DNA from: an uncultured Eubacteriales bacterium
GTDB taxonomy: Bacteria > Bacillota > Clostridia > Christensenellales > CAG-917
Length of the DNA stretch: 32,575 nt
NCBI GenBank assembly: GCA_900322215.1
Contig: ONYW01000013.1
Span: forward strand, 1-32,575
Direction of reading: 5' to 3'
Below the pieces are notes generated by a model. The model did no database searches. It was given only the letters and a program-made list of their open reading frames with translations, and was not told the DNA's origin. Of the stretch, positions 11,784-20,871 are shown piece by piece (positions within the stretch are counted from its first letter, which is position 1; each line of letters begins with the position of its first letter). The position numbers and the translations under genes are program-made.

Positions 11784-12044
11784 TTAACGCCAATAGCCGA
11801 AAATAAGCAATATGCTGATTGCAAGTATTGCAAGCACAACTACCGCCGGCAAAAACAAGGAATAGAATGCGGAAAACAATAGCGCGAACCAGTCTTTCTT
11901 GTCCAATTTGAGTTTTTCGCCGGGAGGAAGAGCGTCTCTTTGTTGATTGAGCCTTGTCATCAATTCAAAGAAGCCTTCCCTGTGCTTTATCTCATTCTTT
12001 TCCTTATTCGCCTTTTCGGGATCTTTAATCTTGCGCATTTTCAT
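11784..12044 (-). CDS. Small membrane protein closing the oligopeptide transporter operon
   Basis: An 86-residue protein I do not recognise. The first 55 residues are rich in Lys, Glu and Arg. One hydrophobic helix of about 25 residues (from FYSLFLPAVVV to ILLIFGYW) ends almost at the C-terminus, so the topology may be tail-anchored with the charged part in the cytoplasm. The ATG at 12042-12044 lies inside the 3' end of oppF, overlapping it by 20 bp in another frame; a second ATG two codons on is also possible. There is no clear ribosome site, so translation is probably coupled to oppF. It is followed directly by the operon terminator. An accessory role for the importer is inferred from position only. 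Confidence 0.65.
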   Translation of the reverse strand: MKMRKIKDPEKANKEKNEIKHREGFFELMTRLNQQRDALPPGEKLKLDKKDWFALLFSAFYSLFLPAVVVLAILAISILLIFGYWR

Positions 12045-13800
12045 CAGTCGGCTCTGCTTGTGTAGGCGCCGGAGTCGGTGTCGGATCCATAACGGATTCA
12101 ACAGGTTCGCCGACAGGCTCTACCGTCAGGTCGTTATTCAAAGGTTCTTGCTCGCTTGGATCGACTCTTACGCCGTCGACTTTTGCAGTCTTCTTGACCA
12201 TCTTCGGCAATTCAAACAAGTAGTTGCCGTTCTCGTCAAGTTTCTTTTCCAAACGGTGGCAAGCGACGAAATGTCCCGGTGCGACTTCTACGAGTTGCGG
12301 CGGAACTCTGTCGCACTTGTCGCACTTCATGTAGCAACGAGTATGGAATTTGCAGCCTTGCGGCGGACGAATCGGGCTTGGGATATTGCCTTCAAGCAAG
12401 ATTCTGTCTTTTGACAAACTTTCGATATCCGTCGTCGGAATAGAGCTGAGAAGCGCTATCGTGTACGGATGACGCGGATCGTTAAAGATCGTCTCCGCAT
12501 CCGCATACTCGACAAGGTTGCCAAGGTACATAACCGCTATCTTGTCGGAGATATAACGCACGACTGACAAATCGTGGGAGATGAAGAGATAGGTCAAGCC
12601 CTCTTTTTGTTTAAGTTCGTCAAGAAGGTTGATGATCTGCGACTGAATGGACACGTCAAGTGCCGAGACGCACTCGTCGCAAACAACGAATTTCGGCTTT
12701 ACGGCAAGCGCACGCGCGATACAAATACGCTGCCTTTGACCGCCCGAGAATTGGTGCGGATAGCGGTGCAACATATAATCTTGCAAACCGCACTCTTCCA
12801 TAGTCTTGATGATATAATCCTTCATGGCTTTTGAGCCGTGACGGAAGAACTTGTGAGTGACAAGACCTTCTTCGATGATTTGACCGACTGTCATACGTGG
12901 GTTCAAACTTGAATACGGATCCTGGAAGATGATTTGCAAATCGCGACGAAGAGGACGAATCTCGTTGTATTTAAGACGCGCGAGATCGACGCCTTCATCC
13001 GTCATCGCTTCGTACTTTGCGAATTCCTCGTTGCCTTCGTATCTTTGCTTGATTTCGGCAAGTTTTGCACGTTGCTCGTCGTTGAGAACGAGAAGACGAT
13101 CGATTTCCGCTTGCAAAGCGTCAGCCTTTGCGCGAGACTTGATAAGTTTCGGATTGTCCTCCGCCTTTATCACCGTACCGTCTTTTTTGGTTTTGTCTTC
13201 CAGTCCAAGATAATACTCGGTTTTCGTCTTCTCAACCGCAAGTTTGTCGCGAAGTTGAGCGATACGGACGTTCATATTGTGGATGGCAAGCAGTTGATTG
13301 CAACCGTCTTGTCTATCCTCAACCGCAAAGAAACCGCCGACGATTTTTACGATATGAAGAAGTTGCGTCTTTGCGTTTGCCTTTGCGAGGTTGCAGTTTT
13401 GCAAAAGGAAGAAGTCCGCATTGTCTTCGCCGACCTCGTCGACCTTCTTTTGCAACTCATCGGCTTGCGCTTGGAGTTTTTTGTATTTTGCGATGTATTT
13501 GTTTATGTGAGTGATGGTGTCCTTGATATAACTCGGTGCGACCTCGGCAAGCGTTCTGCCATAATAGATACTCTCGCCCGCAGTTTGATCGTAGAGTTGC
13601 AAAAGGACGCGTCCGAACGTTGATTTTCCGCAACCAGACTCACCGACGACGCCGATAGTCTCACCCTCGCAAATGTCAAGGGAAATATCTTCGTTTGCCT
13701 TGACGTAGAGTTGCTCTTTTTGGAAGATAGAGGATTTTGCTATCGGGAAATACTTTTTGAGATTAGAAATCGACAACAACTTGTTTTTTGTGTTCTCCAC
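12025..13800 (-). CDS. oppF: Oligopeptide ABC importer ATPase OppF with a coiled-coil insertion
   Basis: A 591-residue ATPase, far above the usual 310-340 for OppF. Walker A is GESGCGKST (53-61). Residues about 84-280 are an extra helical, Lys/Glu/Gln-rich segment with coiled-coil character, placed just before LRRDLQIIFQDPYSSLNP, which carries Q-loop Gln293. The signature FSGGQRQR is at 351-358, Walker B FVVCDE at 371-376 with catalytic Glu376, and the switch His lies in ISHD. The C-terminal oligopeptide domain has Cys483, Cys489, Cys493, Cys496 and Cys514, a pattern that binds 4Fe-4S in some family members. A Pro/Glu-rich tail of about 75 residues follows. I choose the GTG at 13800, since AGGAGG lies nine bases before it; the upstream ATG would sit before that site. 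It overlaps oppD by 38 bp. Confidence 0.9.
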   Translation of the reverse strand: MENTKNKLLSISNLKKYFPIAKSSIFQKEQLYVKANEDISLDICEGETIGVVGESGCGKSTFGRVLLQLYDQTAGESIYYGRTLAEVAPSYIKDTITHINKYIAKYKKLQAQADELQKKVDEVGEDNADFFLLQNCNLAKANAKTQLLHIVKIVGGFFAVEDRQDGCNQLLAIHNMNVRIAQLRDKLAVEKTKTEYYLGLEDKTKKDGTVIKAEDNPKLIKSRAKADALQAEIDRLLVLNDEQRAKLAEIKQRYEGNEEFAKYEAMTDEGVDLARLKYNEIRPLRRDLQIIFQDPYSSLNPRMTVGQIIEEGLVTHKFFRHGSKAMKDYIIKTMEECGLQDYMLHRYPHQFSGGQRQRICIARALAVKPKFVVCDECVSALDVSIQSQIINLLDELKQKEGLTYLFISHDLSVVRYISDKIAVMYLGNLVEYADAETIFNDPRHPYTIALLSSIPTTDIESLSKDRILLEGNIPSPIRPPQGCKFHTRCYMKCDKCDRVPPQLVEVAPGHFVACHRLEKKLDENGNYLFELPKMVKKTAKVDGVRVDPSEQEPLNNDLTVEPVGEPVESVMDPTPTPAPTQAEPTDENAQD

Positions 13801-14779
13801 TTTGTCTATCCTCCTTTTTAGCATAGAAACATCTTACTTTTTGTCCGGGTACGACTTCTTCGAGGGTTGGTTCTTCCTCCAAGCACTTTTGCGTGCAGTA
13901 TTTGCAACGCGGAGCGAACTTGCAGCCCTTCGGGAGCGCAAGCGGATGAGGAACGACGCCCGGGATCGGCTCGAGTTTTTCGCCGACCGATTCCATACGC
14001 GGAATAGAGTGCATAAGCCCCTCGGTATACGGGTGCGAATACACGCAATTTGTAAAGATTACGTTTGCAGGTGCTTGTTCGACGACCTGACCGCAATACA
14101 TAACGACAACGTCATCCGCCATCTCGTTGATAACGCCGAGGTCGTGCGTGATGAAGATTATTGACGTACCGTTTTCACGTTGCAAATCGTTCATAAGCGA
14201 AAGAATTTGCGCTTGAATCGTAACGTCGAGAGCCGTTGTCGGTTCGTCCGCGATCAAGATCTTCGGACGGCACGCAAGAGCCATTGCTATCATAACGCGT
14301 TGACGCATACCGCCGGAGAGCTGGTGCGGATATTGTTTCATAACCGCTTCCGGGTTCGGAATCTGAACGGCGGCGAGCATCTCGAGAGCCTTCTTTGCAG
14401 CCTCCTTTTTTGTCATTCCTTGGTGGATGATAAAGGGCTCGGAAAGTTGCTTCTTGACGTTGAAAACCGGGTTCAAACTGGTCATCGGCTCTTGGAATAT
14501 GACGGAGATCGCGTTGCCGCGGATGTGGTACATCTCATCCATTGAGAGTTTTGTGAGGTCCTGTCCGTCGAACAAAATCTCGCCGGACTTTATGTAGCCG
14601 TTCTCGTCAAGCAAGCGCAAGATGCTCATTGCGGAAACGCTCTTGCCCGAGCCGGATTCGCCGACTATACCGATGGTTCTGCCGGCTTCAACCGAATATG
14701 AGACGCCGTTGACGGCTTTTACTATACCTTTTTTTGTAAGGAAGAAGGTATGCAAATCCTTTACTTCTAATAATGGCAT
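13763..14779 (-). CDS. oppD: Oligopeptide ABC importer ATPase OppD
   Basis: A 338-residue ATPase of normal length that pairs with OppF to power peptide uptake on the inner face of the membrane. Walker A GESGSGKS is at 40-47, the Q-loop lies in VIFQEPMTSLNP, the signature LSGGMRQR is at 154-161, Walker B ILIADEP at 174-180, and the switch His in ITHD. The C-terminal domain has Cys286, Cys292, Cys295, Cys299 and Cys317, like the iron-sulfur motif reported for a thermophilic DppD. AAGGAGG upstream supports the ATG. It lies 11 bp after oppC and overlaps oppF. Unlike OppF it has no insertion between Walker A and the Q-loop. Confidence 0.95.
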   Translation of the reverse strand: MPLLEVKDLHTFFLTKKGIVKAVNGVSYSVEAGRTIGIVGESGSGKSVSAMSILRLLDENGYIKSGEILFDGQDLTKLSMDEMYHIRGNAISVIFQEPMTSLNPVFNVKKQLSEPFIIHQGMTKKEAAKKALEMLAAVQIPNPEAVMKQYPHQLSGGMRQRVMIAMALACRPKILIADEPTTALDVTIQAQILSLMNDLQRENGTSIIFITHDLGVINEMADDVVVMYCGQVVEQAPANVIFTNCVYSHPYTEGLMHSIPRMESVGEKLEPIPGVVPHPLALPKGCKFAPRCKYCTQKCLEEEPTLEEVVPGQKVRCFYAKKEDRQSGEHKKQVVVDF

Positions 14780-14790
14780 TTTCTTCCTCC

Positions 14791-17214
14791 TTAATGACTA
14801 TTGTTAGTACGCGGGTCCATGACGTCGCGGAGCGCATCGCCGATGATATTGACGCAAATCGTGGTGATCGCAAGGAATATCGACGGGAACAGCCATAACC
14901 ACCAGTAGTTTCCGATGATGGTAAGGTTTTGAGCAGCATTGAGCATGTTGCCCCAGGTCGGTCTCGGATACATAACACCGAAGCCCAAGTAGGACAAACC
15001 GGATTCGGTAAGCATACAGCCTGCGAAGTCAAGCGTGAGCGTGACTATGATGACTGAGATGACGTTTGGCAAAATGTGCTTGAACGCAATTCTGAACTCG
15101 TTGACGCCCATTGCCTTTGCAGCGGTGATATACTCCGACTCACGCGCGGCAAGAACTTGACCGCGGACGAGTCTTGCAAGACCTGTCCAGGAGAGTACGC
15201 CGAGAATGACCATGATGAGGAATAGACGCGTATTCTCGGGAACGTTCTTCGTAGACAAGATTGCCGACAAAATCATTGCAAACGGCAAGAACGGGATTGC
15301 GCCGACGACTTCCGTCAAACGCATGAGGAACATATCGACCTTGCCTCCGAAATAACCGGAAAGAACACCGATGATGATACCTATAATTGAGGAGATAATG
15401 ACTGCAACCGCACCGATGGTGAGCGTCATACGACCGCCGTTGACAAGACGTTTGAACACGCTTGCGCCGTTTGAGTCCGTGCCGAAGATATAGCCTTTAA
15501 GTCCCGATTTTTCAATCACTTTTCCGTCGCTGTTGAGCGCGTATGATTGATAAGACTCTGCATATACTTCACTGACTTCGCCGTCGCCTTTGCCATTCAA
15601 TTTGAGTTGATTGTGCGTGTTGTCGCCCCAAGCATAGACGTAACCGTCGTTTGAAACGCCGAGGTAGTGCTCGGCACCTGCGGAGATTTGCGTGAAATAT
15701 CTTGAAAGTCCGAGTGCAGGAAGATCCGTTACGTTTTCGGCAAAGTCACCCGAGAACAAAACTCTGTTTTTGCCCGTTGACTCTTGAACCAAAACTGCCA
15801 AGTTGCTGTTTGCGCAAGCAAGCGACAAAATATTGTTGCCGTTCAAAACCAAATCTTGATCCGCAGACGCGGCGTCTTTCATCTTATATTTGAGTTTTAT
15901 AGGCGTGCTTTCATAGTTGACGAGGCTCTTTTGGTCATAAGATACGCCGAAAATCGCCGTTCTCGTTATGTCGATATCATAGAACTTGTCACCCTTGTTT
16001 GCAAACTTGGAAGCGTTTCTATACGTGTTGTTGTTGCCCCAAACTTTGATGGTACCGTCTTTCATCAAAATGATGGAGATTTGGTTGCCGCAAACGAGTT
16101 TTTTGACGTTGTTGACGTCAACTTTTCCGCCGTATCTCAAATCTTCGGGCATCATGATGATGTTGATGTTGTCCTTTTGGTTGTTATAATCGGCTTCGCT
16201 TTCAATAAATTGACCGAGTTCACTGTGTCCCCACGCATAGACCGTGCCGTCGTCACCGATAGCGACGATGTGGTCTGAGCCCGCGGAAACAAATTCGATC
16301 TTTGCGTCCTTGACAGCCTGAGGCATGCTCTTTGCAATATCGACCTTTGTCGTACCTATCTTGGTGACGCCCCAAATATACACCTTTCCTTCGTCAGACA
16401 AACCGACGGTAAAGAAAGAATTTGAATTGATATATTTGATATGCCCGTTGAGTTCCTTCGGAACGGACATCATGCTGACTGTCGGAGGAAGGTATGCCTG
16501 TGACGAAGACTTGTAAAGGTCGGTATACGTTGGCATGCAAAGCGGTCCGATGAACACAAACAGGAACATCGCAACGACGATTACGAGCGCCGCTACGGCA
16601 AGTTTCTTTTCAAAGAAAGCCTTGACGTATTGTCTGCCCGGGCTAACGATCTCTTCGACGTCGGTAAGTTTTGCCTTTTTGTGCTTTTTGCCCTTCTTTT
16701 GCGGTTCTTCTTGCGGATTTTCATCGGCAAGAAGTGCTTGTTGCTGTTCGAGTTCTTTTTCAGCCTTTTCTCTTGCGGCTTCTTCTTCAAACTTCTTTTC
16801 TTGCTTTGCAATTTCCTTTTCGGCAACTTTGCTCGCGCCCCAAATCATGCGGGTGAGCCAACGGCCAAGAGTTGAAAGCACAAGGAAACAGCCTTTGCAA
16901 AATTTGACAAAGCCCTCTTTTGCCTTTGTCTTAGAGTCCTTTGCGGGAGCCTCCGCTTGCTCGTTTTCGCAAGCGTCTTGAACGTCGCCGTTCTCGGCAA
17001 CGTTTTCGGGAGTATAATTCTCCTCTTTTTCAGGTTCCGAAGACAAAGTTTCTTCGGGCTTCTCTTCAAGTACGGGCTCTCTCTCTTGTGGCTTTTCGAG
17101 TTCTTCCGTTTGTTCTACTTGCTCGGAGACCTTTTGTTCTTCTTCAGAGACAACTTGTTCGTTGAGTTTTTGCTCTTCAAGGCTCAAATTTTCGTCTTTT
17201 TTCTTTTTCGCCAT
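14791..17214 (-). CDS. oppC: Oligopeptide ABC importer permease OppC with an RCC1-type propeller in its first extracellular loop
   Basis: An 807-residue permease, against about 300 usually. Residues 1-195 are a Glu/Lys-rich cytoplasmic extension with one amphipathic stretch (about 101-128). TM1 is at about 205-226. Residues about 246-572 form an inserted domain of RCC1-type repeats: KVYIWG (277-282), SAGSDHIVAIGDDGTVYAWG (310-329), VCGNQISIILMKDGTIKVWG (374-393), weaker copies near 406-432 and 460-490, SAGAEHYLGVSNDGYVYAWG (511-530), and a weak one near 548-572. The normal OppC sequence resumes at FGTDSNG (577-583), then the five-helix permease domain with the EAA-loop region at about 689-717. 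The frame is continuous. GGAGG before the ATG fixes the start, 11 bp after oppB. The insertion should lie outside the cell, near the binding protein. Confidence 0.93.
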   Translation of the reverse strand: MAKKKKDENLSLEEQKLNEQVVSEEEQKVSEQVEQTEELEKPQEREPVLEEKPEETLSSEPEKEENYTPENVAENGDVQDACENEQAEAPAKDSKTKAKEGFVKFCKGCFLVLSTLGRWLTRMIWGASKVAEKEIAKQEKKFEEEAAREKAEKELEQQQALLADENPQEEPQKKGKKHKKAKLTDVEEIVSPGRQYVKAFFEKKLAVAALVIVVAMFLFVFIGPLCMPTYTDLYKSSSQAYLPPTVSMMSVPKELNGHIKYINSNSFFTVGLSDEGKVYIWGVTKIGTTKVDIAKSMPQAVKDAKIEFVSAGSDHIVAIGDDGTVYAWGHSELGQFIESEADYNNQKDNINIIMMPEDLRYGGKVDVNNVKKLVCGNQISIILMKDGTIKVWGNNNTYRNASKFANKGDKFYDIDITRTAIFGVSYDQKSLVNYESTPIKLKYKMKDAASADQDLVLNGNNILSLACANSNLAVLVQESTGKNRVLFSGDFAENVTDLPALGLSRYFTQISAGAEHYLGVSNDGYVYAWGDNTHNQLKLNGKGDGEVSEVYAESYQSYALNSDGKVIEKSGLKGYIFGTDSNGASVFKRLVNGGRMTLTIGAVAVIISSIIGIIIGVLSGYFGGKVDMFLMRLTEVVGAIPFLPFAMILSAILSTKNVPENTRLFLIMVILGVLSWTGLARLVRGQVLAARESEYITAAKAMGVNEFRIAFKHILPNVISVIIVTLTLDFAGCMLTESGLSYLGFGVMYPRPTWGNMLNAAQNLTIIGNYWWLWLFPSIFLAITTICVNIIGDALRDVMDPRTNNSH

Positions 17215-17225
17215 AAGTCGCCTCC

Positions 17226-18275
17226 TTATTTATTGACGCGTACGCGCGGATCCGCGAGACCATACGCGAGGTCGATAATCAAGTTGCCCAAGAGGGACAA
17301 CGTGACGTAGAACATTTGCAAGAACAAGACAACGTCAAAGTCTCTCGTCGTGAGCGAGCTGATGAGCAAGTTGCCCATGCCGTTGAGACCGAAGATTTGT
17401 TCTATCATGACAGAGCCGGAGAATATGCCAAGGAACCAGCCGACGACGAGCGTGATGACCGGAATGAGTGCGTTTCTCCAAGCGTGGCTGTAGATGACCG
17501 TTCTCTCTTTAACACCCTTAGCACGCGCAGTACGGATGCAGTCCATACCGAGCGCCTCGATCATAGACGCGCGGACGTATCTCGTCATACCGCCGAGCGA
17601 ACAGAACGTCATAACTATAAGCGGAAGTGCGAGATAATACAGTTTGTCTCCAAATGCTTGTATACCCGTATAAGACGCACCCGGCGTCCCCATGCCTGAC
17701 GCAGGGAACCACCCTGCAGTCCAACAGAACAGATATATGAACAAAATCGCGATGATAAACGTCGGCAAACTGTAGCCGATGATAGTCAGCACCTGCATCG
17801 ACTTATCTCCCCTGCTCCCCTTGTGAACTGCCGAAGCAATACCAAGTGGTATCGTAATGCCGAGTGCGAGAATCGTGGCAAAGATGTTGATAAACACCGT
17901 ATTTCCCATCGGGTCTTTGACGATGTCGATGACGTCGCCCTTTTGGTCAAACGAATAGCCGAAGTTGCCTTGCAACATCCCGTTGAGATTACCGTCGTGG
18001 TATGGATAAAGACCAATCCAGCGCAAATACCTTACTGCAAGATTGTTCGTTTCAGTACCATACTGATATTGCAATTCTTTATATCTTGCTTCAAACATCT
18101 CGGCTTTCTTATCTTCCGGCAAACGCTTGTACGTCGGGTTGCTCTGCATTTCCGCCTTTGCATCCGAATAAGCCCTGTTGTTTGGAACAGACATATAGAT
18201 TACAAACATCAAAATTGACAAGATTATCCAAACGATAACCATATATGCCAATCTTTTGAGAATGTACCTGAACAT
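17226..18275 (-). CDS. oppB: Oligopeptide ABC importer permease OppB
   Basis: A 349-residue permease of the DppB/OppB family. It has the first membrane helix near the N-terminus (RYILKRLAYMVIVWIILSIL), a loop of about 100 residues, then five further helices with the EAA-loop signature around GMDCIRTARAKGVKERTVI and the NALIPVITLV segment. The C-terminal DPRVRVNK is typical of the family. The loop between TM1 and TM2, with YQYGTETNNLAVRYLRWI and GNFGYSF, is of normal size, unlike that of OppC. AGGAGA six bases upstream supports the ATG at 18275; a longer open frame to 18398 lacks such a site. It forms the channel with OppC. It is separated from the binding-protein gene by 151 bp with a strong stem-loop. 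Confidence 0.95.
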   Translation of the reverse strand: MFRYILKRLAYMVIVWIILSILMFVIYMSVPNNRAYSDAKAEMQSNPTYKRLPEDKKAEMFEARYKELQYQYGTETNNLAVRYLRWIGLYPYHDGNLNGMLQGNFGYSFDQKGDVIDIVKDPMGNTVFINIFATILALGITIPLGIASAVHKGSRGDKSMQVLTIIGYSLPTFIIAILFIYLFCWTAGWFPASGMGTPGASYTGIQAFGDKLYYLALPLIVMTFCSLGGMTRYVRASMIEALGMDCIRTARAKGVKERTVIYSHAWRNALIPVITLVVGWFLGIFSGSVMIEQIFGLNGMGNLLISSLTTRDFDVVLFLQMFYVTLSLLGNLIIDLAYGLADPRVRVNK

Positions 18276-18426: not shown

Positions 18427-20871
18427 TTATTTTGCGAGAAGATAGAAGTCTGCGTAGTCTTTGACGTAGCAGATGCTGAGGTCATCATACATTGCAGGGT
18501 TGATTGTCCAGTTGTAAGAATAATCATAAACTGCACTGTTGAAACCTGTTGCAAAGTTGAAGCATGTGTACTTCGGTGTGCCATCATAGTAGCCATGGAC
18601 CGGATATTGGTAGAGTTCGTCAAGCATCGGGTTGAAGTCACCGATTGTTTCGTGAATTGAGAAACCTGCTTGTGCAAATGCTGCGCCGTTCTTGAACTCT
18701 GTGACAAGAAGGTCTGTGAATGGGTTATCTTGTGTGCCAAACCAGTTGAGAACGAGTGGCATATAGTAGCAATTTTCTGCTGCGTCATAAACTGTTGTGA
18801 GTGAACCGTCAATTGCTCTAAATGTCTTGTCAGCGTCGCTCATGAGGTCTGCGTCGATCTTCTTATAACGTACGCCTGTTCCTGCATATGCAGAACCGTC
18901 TGCATTGTAGATCCAGCCGTTTGCCGCCAAGAGGTCTTTTGCTGCTTCAACGCTCTTTGTGTATGTGTTGAGGATGATGTCGTCCTCAACTTCTTGATAC
19001 ATCCAAGCACCTGTGTAGTATGGACCGTCGACAACGCCGCCGTAACCGCCTGTGAATTGTGATGCAAAGTCAGATCTGTCGAGGCAGAGTGCGATTGCTT
19101 CACGAACAGCCATGAATTGGACAGGACCGAAGTCTGCACGGAAGCCGAGTTTGCCGTAGCCTGCACGTGAATAGTGTGTGAGGATTGCTTTGTCGTCCGC
19201 TGTGCCGAGTTGTCCGTCTGTGCCCTTTGCATAGGAGATAACTTCGTTCGTTTCATCGCCGCCTGTGATTGCCGCAAGAACGTCTACGCCGTTAGAATCG
19301 AAGTCTGCAAGTTGTGTCTTTGCAACGATCTTCTTGTAAACGACTGTGCCGATAGATGGCTTTGTGCCTTCATAGTTGCCCTTGTAGTTGTTGTTCTTCT
19401 TGAGAGTTGCCATCTTTTGTGCAGCATCATAAGATTCAACATAGTAAGGACCACTGTACGGATAGTCTGTGTTTGTGTTTGCAGCAGACGCTTTGATGTG
19501 TGCTGCTTTTGCAAAGCTTGTGCCATCCTTTGCATAGAAAGCATCGGAGAGGTAAACACCGTTCTCGCTGTCGAGGATGTCAACGCCTTCGCCGAGCCAG
19601 AGTGGGAGATATTCAGGACCGAAACCTGCTTGGATGAGGCTGTAGAAATAGCCAGCATAGTCAGAAATAACTGTTGCGGAGAACGTATATTCGTCGAGGA
19701 GTCTGAAGCCCTTGAAATATTTGCTTGCCGTTGTGACGACTTCGCCGTCTTCGTCAAGAATGTCTTGACCGTCGTTCGTGCCGTCGTATGCTGCGAATTC
19801 ATCGTAACCGACATAGCTCATACCTGCTTTGTGATCTCTGCCTGCTGCTTGAGCCGCAACCGGTGTAGAGAAAACAAGTGCTGTGACGAGGTAGTTCTTT
19901 GCTTTGATTGCAGAACCGTCGGAGAACTTGAGGTCGTTCTTGATCTTGATCGTGAACGTCAATGTGCCGTCCTCGTTGAGTTCTTGTGAGAATTGATCGA
20001 CAACTGTGTCGTCAACTTGATAGTTGCCTTCTTTGTTTGCCGTGACTGTTGCAAGACCGGAAACAAGACCTGCTACGTCGTTGTCAGCTGCGCCAGGATT
20101 GCTTGCACCGAAGCTTGAATAACGGAACTTACCGGAAAGGTCTGTGCTGTTGCCGATGATGATCTTGTCATCGGAAGACGTCCAATCGATAAGAGCCTTT
20201 GCAGGTCCCCAATATGGGTTGGTCGGATGTTCTGTCACGCCGCCGAGTTTCTTGTTGTAAACGTCATAATACTCGTTGCTGTAAAGCGGTACTTCTGGGA
20301 GCAAGAGGTTCCAACGTTGAATGTAGAGCTTCCACCATTCAGCATAAACGTCTTCTGCTGTTTCGAAGTCGCCAGCCGGTTGCGTGTTGTAGACCATTGC
20401 CATGGAGAGGAAGTCCATACCAAGTTCTGTAAGTTGTGCGCCTTCTGTTGCGGCAGAAGCAAGCTTGCCGTCTTTCAAGTAGATATACGCACGACCGTCA
20501 TTCTTTTGAAGAACGTCAGAAATCTTAACGCTTGCACCGACAAGGTCATACAATGACTTATAATCTGTACCATAAGTCAAATCTGCATACATACCGATGT
20601 TATCCATTGCGAGTTCGTTTTCACCACAAACCGTGCAGATGTGATTTGCACCGAAGTTATGGCCTGTTGCTGCGATAGCACGTGTTTCGACGTTGCCGAG
20701 AGAGCTCTCTCTCTTCTCCAAGCCGGCTTTCGTGCAGTTTGCAGCAGCAACCGTTTCCCAATTGCCCCAAGTCTCTGCAGGTGCCTCATCTTTCTTGTTG
20801 CATGCTGCGAGGACAATAGACAATGAAAGAACAACAACGATTACTAATGCTAACCATTTGAATTTCTTCAT
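18427..20871 (-). CDS. oppA: Oligopeptide-binding lipoprotein (SBP family 5), apparently circularly permuted
   Basis: An 814-residue extracellular binding protein, longer than the usual 530-600. The signal peptide ends in a lipobox at Cys24 (LAAC). Residues about 35-84 form a small module with NCTKAGLEKR, ATGH (68-71) and CTVC (79-82), seen in many surface proteins of gut Bacillota. Residues about 165-232 carry YAEWWKLY, LPEVPLYSNEYYDVYNKKL and PYWGPAKALIDW, which in ordinary family members lie at the C-terminus. The usual N-terminal lobe starts only at about 235 (KIIIGNSTDLSG), and the LKFSDGSAIKAKNYL motif is at about 314-328. The protein ends without the usual last segment. GGAGG before the ATG at 20871 fixes the start. 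Thr ACA, Ala GCA and Pro CCA codons are frequent, unlike the neighbours, as in highly expressed genes. Confidence 0.92.
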   Translation of the reverse strand: MKKFKWLALVIVVVLSLSIVLAACNKKDEAPAETWGNWETVAAANCTKAGLEKRESSLGNVETRAIAATGHNFGANHICTVCGENELAMDNIGMYADLTYGTDYKSLYDLVGASVKISDVLQKNDGRAYIYLKDGKLASAATEGAQLTELGMDFLSMAMVYNTQPAGDFETAEDVYAEWWKLYIQRWNLLLPEVPLYSNEYYDVYNKKLGGVTEHPTNPYWGPAKALIDWTSSDDKIIIGNSTDLSGKFRYSSFGASNPGAADNDVAGLVSGLATVTANKEGNYQVDDTVVDQFSQELNEDGTLTFTIKIKNDLKFSDGSAIKAKNYLVTALVFSTPVAAQAAGRDHKAGMSYVGYDEFAAYDGTNDGQDILDEDGEVVTTASKYFKGFRLLDEYTFSATVISDYAGYFYSLIQAGFGPEYLPLWLGEGVDILDSENGVYLSDAFYAKDGTSFAKAAHIKASAANTNTDYPYSGPYYVESYDAAQKMATLKKNNNYKGNYEGTKPSIGTVVYKKIVAKTQLADFDSNGVDVLAAITGGDETNEVISYAKGTDGQLGTADDKAILTHYSRAGYGKLGFRADFGPVQFMAVREAIALCLDRSDFASQFTGGYGGVVDGPYYTGAWMYQEVEDDIILNTYTKSVEAAKDLLAANGWIYNADGSAYAGTGVRYKKIDADLMSDADKTFRAIDGSLTTVYDAAENCYYMPLVLNWFGTQDNPFTDLLVTEFKNGAAFAQAGFSIHETIGDFNPMLDELYQYPVHGYYDGTPKYTCFNFATGFNSAVYDYSYNWTINPAMYDDLSICYVKDYADFYLLAK

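Follow-up and report, generated by a model that had tools for sequence, protein, structure and literature searches.

An OppC-type ABC permease of Clostridia with a predicted RCC1-like propeller in its outer TM1-TM2 loop

The window (the whole stretch of DNA that was analysed, 32,575 nucleotides) carries an OppC-type permease gene in an operon with genes for OppA, OppB, OppD and OppF. The OppC-RCC1 gene is a single unbroken frame of 807 codons on the minus strand. The features are given below, with residue numbers of the protein concerned and the basis of each call in brackets.

12025..13824, minus strand: OppF ATPase with an insertion between Walker A and Q-loop (Pfam, motif spacing)
12934..13623, minus strand: OppF Walker A-Q-loop stretch, 230 residues (motif spacing)
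13763..14779, minus strand: OppD ATPase, ordinary Walker A to Q-loop spacing (Pfam)
14791..17214, minus strand: OppC permease with inserted RCC1 propeller, P0001, 807 aa (Pfam, AlphaFold2, structure alignment)
14806..15381, minus strand: BPD_transp_1 permease domain (Pfam)
15475..15486, minus strand: FGTD motif, start of the permease domain, residues 577-580 (sequence alignment)
15502..16497, minus strand: inserted RCC1-type propeller, predicted, residues 240-571 (Pfam, PDB search, AlphaFold2, structure alignment)
16369..16440, minus strand: blade 1 strands, residues 259-282 (AlphaFold2, RCC1_2 match)
16228..16299, minus strand: blade 2 strands, residues 306-329 (AlphaFold2, RCC1_2 match)
16033..16107, minus strand: blade 3 strands, residues 370-394 (AlphaFold2, RCC1_2 match)
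15889..15984, minus strand: blade 4 strands, degenerate, residues 411-442 (AlphaFold2)
15748..15834, minus strand: blade 5 strands, degenerate, residues 461-489 (AlphaFold2)
15625..15696, minus strand: blade 6 strands, residues 507-530 (AlphaFold2, RCC1_2 match)
15502..15570, minus strand: blade 7 strands, directly before the conserved junction to GTD, residues 549-571 (AlphaFold2, alignment)
16537..16605, minus strand: TM1 within OppC_N, residues 204-226 (AlphaFold2 helix, model residues 27-49)
16660..17214, minus strand: N-terminal charged extension of OppC, residues 1-185, cytoplasmic by family topology, weakly conserved
17226..18275, minus strand: OppB, from its ATG; the TTG frame reaches 18398 (Pfam, NCBIfam)
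18427..20871, minus strand: OppA, SBP_bac_5, circularly permuted (Pfam, sequence comparison, predicted model, structure alignment)
20167..20427, minus strand: OppA permuted segment, C-terminal in unpermuted relatives, residues 154-240 of P0003

Pfam recognised OppC_N at residues 191-244 (E 4.4e-9) and BPD_transp_1 at residues 612-803 (E 1.4e-35) of window OppC, both above the curated cut-offs, and the PDB sequence search matched residues 566-804 to OppC and DppC. None of the named NCBIfam equivalogs tested (Opp4C, OppC and others) was reached. The best model, Opp4C, scored 294.5 bits against a cut-off of 350, and for that reason the permease was named as general OppC type and not as an equivalog. 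Judged by its sequence, the gene encodes an OppC-type permease of a type I ABC importer, whose peptide substrate is assumed from the family. The extension of about 185 charged residues at its N-terminus is shorter or different in most aligned relatives. The predicted structure of window OppC (an AlphaFold2 model of residues 178-807) shares the fold of the solved OppC and DppC. E. coli OppC aligned with all of its 278 resolved residues, to model residues 12-624, and across the aligned span the window protein has 335 extra residues, which are taken to be contiguous between TM1 and FGTD because they lie so in the sequence. On either side of this insertion, the model and E. coli OppC superpose. 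The Pfam order and the superposition bear out the preliminary description, which had put a propeller in the outer TM1-TM2 loop; by family topology this loop would be outside the cell.

The RCC1-type Pfam matches span residues 251-537. RCC1_2 was found in four stretches (E 5e-31, 106 bits, cut-off 22), the RCC1 model scored 30.4 bits (cut-off 21.7), and WD40_RLD reached 111 bits (E 8.9e-32), under its whole-protein cut-off of 150. In the PDB, stretches within residues 245-568 matched UVR8, RCC1, HERC2 and BLIP-II. The AlphaFold2 model has 21 strands of at least three residues between residues 259 and 571, followed by the permease helices; the grouping into seven blades of three strands is our reading of the DSSP strand list. 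A seven-bladed RCC1-like propeller is predicted with good confidence, in agreement with the fold named in the preliminary description. That description had distinguished four clear repeat units and some three weak ones, where Pfam finds four and the model seven, and it had given the interval as 15495-16475 (residues 247-573); the insertion stands, and its limits are moved to 15502-16497. Among 31 aligned sequences the junction residues G571, G574 and G578-T579-D580 were invariant, as were, by eye, a few positions outside the repeat motif, while identity outside the repeat motifs was low. Mean identity was 0.35 for the propeller versus 0.65 for the permease core. In its genome, nothing but the window gene matched the full-length OppC protein at E 0.001. 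All four RCC1_2 matches in this genome fall within the OppC gene and no second RCC1 protein was found there, which eliminated a donor RCC1 protein from the same genome.

Compared with E. coli OppC and DppC (of OppBCDF and DppABCDF), the window protein has the additional residues with the predicted propeller, and its operon differs further in the OppF insertion and, in the window's subclade, in the permuted OppA. Unlike the propellers of BLIP-II, UVR8, HERC2, RPGR and RCC1, that of the window is spliced into a loop of a membrane permease; the Pfam repeat is found in four of its seven blades, and nothing indicates an exchange-factor function. The P2 domain of MalF is not known to be a propeller, and it is the second periplasmic loop of that protein, unlike the TM1-TM2 position in window OppC. 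Its likeness is one of function: in the available parts of two papers on the maltose importer it is an extra outer permease domain that contacts the binding protein (PMC3150292, PMC8134467). The scoop motif of DppB, according to the accessible text of PMC12136057, also follows TM1 on the outer side of a peptide permease subunit and docks the binding protein, but it is built of a loop and two short helices and belongs to the B subunit, whereas the window has a whole domain in the C subunit. The literature search found no description of a permease with an RCC1 propeller; preprints and most subscription papers were outside its scope, and such an absence is not proof. One candidate precedent, PMC10804542, was set aside, RCC1 being a strain name in the part of the paper available. 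The loop of ordinary OppC had been described as short. This is correct for E. coli OppC but not for six unfused OppC of 521-735 residues chosen for their length (L019, L110, L114, L107, L131 and L116), which have 244-456 residues between OppC_N and BPD_transp_1 versus 367 in the window. No Pfam family was found in this stretch of the six proteins. The TM1-TM2 loop of OppC seems to be open to insertions, the propeller being one of them.

A match spanning the insertion was found in four of 44 genomes of the family: the window genome (G000), G005 (78% identity), G042 (67%) and G001 (50%). Among the other 20 genomes of the genus, G005 has the fused gene and 14 have an unfused permease domain as best match, at 39-43% identity. 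The insertion was matched in 72 of 397 genomes of the order, and all of the 30 best order-level loci encode fused OppC of 609-822 residues; at least four further genomes of the order with frames of similar size lie outside these 30. In the phylum sample 98 of 398 genomes were matched, 14 of them (window included) over nearly the whole profile. The other 13 are all fused, and the next match had E 2e-27. The scan of public genomes gave, among the 80 loci listed, 40 fused (L061-L100, with the gene of L097 cut by a contig end) and 40 unfused (L101-L140). L006, a further unfused OppC, appears to have a long loop, as judged by length only. All 39 proteins of alignment A3 matched OppC_N, RCC1_2, WD40_RLD and BPD_transp_1 at E <=0.001.

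Two fused records carry strain titles and are not MAGs, Butyrivibrio sp. AE2015 and Clostridium sp. Cult1 (a 2.6 Mb contig). The window genome is an assembly of 65 contigs, as an assembly chimera or annotation artefact might be expected to come from, but the fused frame of these two records and of dozens of other assemblies makes that explanation negligible; a chimera was ruled out by the fused relatives, and the insertion is conserved. The fused OppC and its conserved family across Clostridia are well supported; the bacteria that carry it are gut-dwelling and other anaerobes of one lineage. One fused record titled Anaerolineaceae (L085) is a metagenome bin and may be wrongly labelled. In a tree of 90 permease domains, one branch (support 100/99) separates 47 unfused from 43 fused rows; six rows lie on long end branches, those of L026 and L024 being very long, and the program flags the stem of the fused group itself as long. 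No unfused member was found inside the fused clade among the 80 listed loci and the 44 family genomes, although such members could be overlooked because the rows were drawn from searches with fused queries. A single origin of the fusion is the simplest reading of these sequences. Some similarity was found in 3248 of 72,556 plasmid records, none with one place covering 80% of the OppC protein, and phage families matched only by generic permease and RCC1 profiles.

The gene order oppA, oppB, oppC-RCC1, oppD, oppF is kept at the listed loci wherever no contig end interrupts the operon. The OppA, OppB, OppD and OppF genes also accompany fused OppC in the order-level set, L183 being without OppA on the available stretch. 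Some 180 residues are inserted in the window OppF, and by eye they look charged and helical. Among the 40 fused and 40 unfused loci listed, 32 of 34 OppF from fused loci had a Walker A-Q-loop gap of at least 187 residues and 24 of 25 from unfused loci had one of 41-46, counts that leave out six fused and 15 unfused loci yielding no OppF. Of 20 order-level operons (one of which, L186, has a second OppF-like frame), 18 had a gap of at least 219 residues, and the two others had gaps of 137 and 46. The window stretch matched the other 33 long ones of the set, including that of the unfused locus L103, which points to a homologous insertion. The preliminary description had asked whether the propeller always occurs with modified OppF and OppA. 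For OppF this is true of most fused operons, but L076, L090 and L179 are fused operons without the insertion, L180 has a short form, and L103 has the insertion beside an unfused OppC. Because exceptions exist on both sides, a strict link between the two alterations was dropped.

For OppA the association is narrower. Among the listed loci, 14 of 29 OppA beside fused OppC, the window's included, are permuted and 15 have the ordinary order; in the order-level set 12 of 19 are permuted, the two sets having at least two records in common. In the permuted proteins the closing segment of ordinary OppA, roughly 85 residues, lies close to the N-terminus, immediately ahead of where the mature domain normally begins. 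Residues 154-240 of window OppA matched every one of the 15 unpermuted relatives at its C-terminal end with 41-87 bits (best of 100 shuffles, 24.6), and the part from residue 241 matched their N-terminal parts, in L090 only in the middle. From residue 228 on, the OppA model (pLDDT 83) aligns with E. coli OppA over residues 27-474 of the latter (425 of 517 residues), which is what would be expected if the C-terminal part were permuted. As read from its sequence, window OppA is a natural circular permutation. A permuted glucose-binding protein, Tp0684, has already been published (PMC4990184, as far as the accessible text goes). All 14 permuted rows fall in one tree group of 18 (97/85), which has no known unpermuted member and also holds L063 and L065 (partial OppA frames ending without the segment), L071 and L003; the OppA of the genome of L004 (L188) is unpermuted. 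Among fused operons, modified OppA goes with the propeller in one subclade only. The propeller as a consequence of the permutation was excluded because 15 of the 29 OppA keep the normal order. The window genome has a second SBP_bac_5 gene on another contig; in its product (L198, G000:C41) the segment seems, by eye, to be N-terminal as in the permuted OppA.

The explanation that we favour, with a probability of roughly one half (0.48), is that the propeller faces outward and serves to dock or gate OppA. On this view OppABCDF would be a type I ABC importer of peptides whose OppC subunit bears the seven-bladed domain in its TM1-TM2 loop, on the outer face and beside the mouth of the pore. There the propeller would serve as a protein-binding platform for OppA, and could keep loaded OppA above that half of the permease which OppC forms, or else seal the chamber during release, a job comparable to that of the MalF P2 domain and to that of the scoop motif in the partner subunit. 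In E. coli DppABCDF, DppB uses the scoop motif behind its TM1 to bind the DppA cleft, and its TM1-TM2 periplasmic region differs from that of DppC (PMC12136057, accessible text). The OppC loop with the propeller corresponds to this docking loop of DppB. BLIP-II, the top propeller match, was solved with a beta-lactamase, and RCC1-type propellers bind varied protein partners (PDB titles).

Propeller divergence was compared with that of the other importer parts by partial correlation, with quadratic controls for the permease core, OppB, OppD and the OppF core and 500 label permutations. The five sets, which are nested or overlapping, were the 28 loci with all five genes out of 41 (the 40 listed and the window), 13 with permuted and 15 with unpermuted OppA, 19 of 20 at order level, and the 12 permuted ones of the order-level set; L175/L069 and L178/L098 are apparently the same records. 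In this order, the partial r of propeller and OppA was 0.45, 0.72, 0.30, 0.64 and 0.72, with 0, 0, 11, 0 and 0 of the 500 permutations as high. The corresponding values were 0.01, -0.09, 0.06, -0.10 and -0.18 for propeller and OppB (0.08 in linear form in the first set) and 0.15, 0.54, -0.13, 0.44 and 0.57 for the propeller and the OppF insertion, a fast-evolving control. OppA gave -0.08, 0.34, -0.01, 0.36 and 0.73 with the OppF insertion, 0.30, -0.11, 0.30, -0.03 and -0.14 with the permease core, and 0.05, 0.31, 0.34, 0.05 and 0.22 with OppB. In the last set the cytoplasmic OppF insertion tracks OppA no less closely than the propeller does, and in the permuted sets the fast-evolving parts tend to correlate with each other. 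OppA also tracks the permease core in two sets and OppB in two. Since the OppF insertion correlates too, shared fast evolution or niche may explain much of the signal. The pattern lends modest support to OppA as the partner. Among the roles suggested in the preliminary description (recruiting or gating the binding protein, binding cell wall, capturing a peptide), position and divergence favour the first. Ordinary OppABCDF works without a propeller domain, which counts against docking.

The varied partners of RCC1-type propellers would also suit a receptor for something other than OppA, such as a peptidase, a wall or surface polymer or the peptide itself, through which the source of substrate would be brought to the importer. 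The outside position given by family topology and the fast divergence relative to the permease core are consistent with this possibility, which we consider doubtful: among the importer's own parts propeller divergence follows OppA best, with mixed controls. It is unlikely that the domain is a ligand-free rigid cap or spacer that would keep OppC stable or OppA at its proper height, with folding as its sole constraint. The low identity outside the repeat motifs would fit such a role, and other OppC carry long but unrelated sequences between the same two domains, so that bulk may count for more than sequence; yet the junction and a few non-motif positions are invariant, and the residual divergence of the propeller follows OppA.

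Other readings take in the OppC-OppF half. In E. coli, DppB pairs with DppD and DppC with DppF (PMC12136057, available part), so that by analogy the propeller and the altered OppF would be on the same half. This correspondence, and the joint occurrence of both alterations in 32 of 34 and 18 of 20 fused operons, could suggest a sensor in which a propeller ligand alters the state of OppF through its insertion. The exceptions described above (L076, L090, L179, L180 and L103) speak against it, as do the divergences of propeller and OppF insertion, which go together in just three of the five sets, and we regard it as highly improbable. A broader version, in which this half is a receptor whose propeller senses what state OppA or another ligand is in and relays this to OppF, the insertion being a regulatory arm, and in which propeller-guided docking allowed the permutation of OppA in one subclade, is quite improbable as well.

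Peptide importers are a much-studied class of ABC systems, and a propeller in the outer loop of their permease is apparently undescribed. The occurrence of permuted and unpermuted OppA in one operon family would offer a test of how far a binding protein can change its topology and still dock. More generally, this conserved family of Clostridia would be a natural test of binding-protein docking and of the gain of outer domains by permeases.
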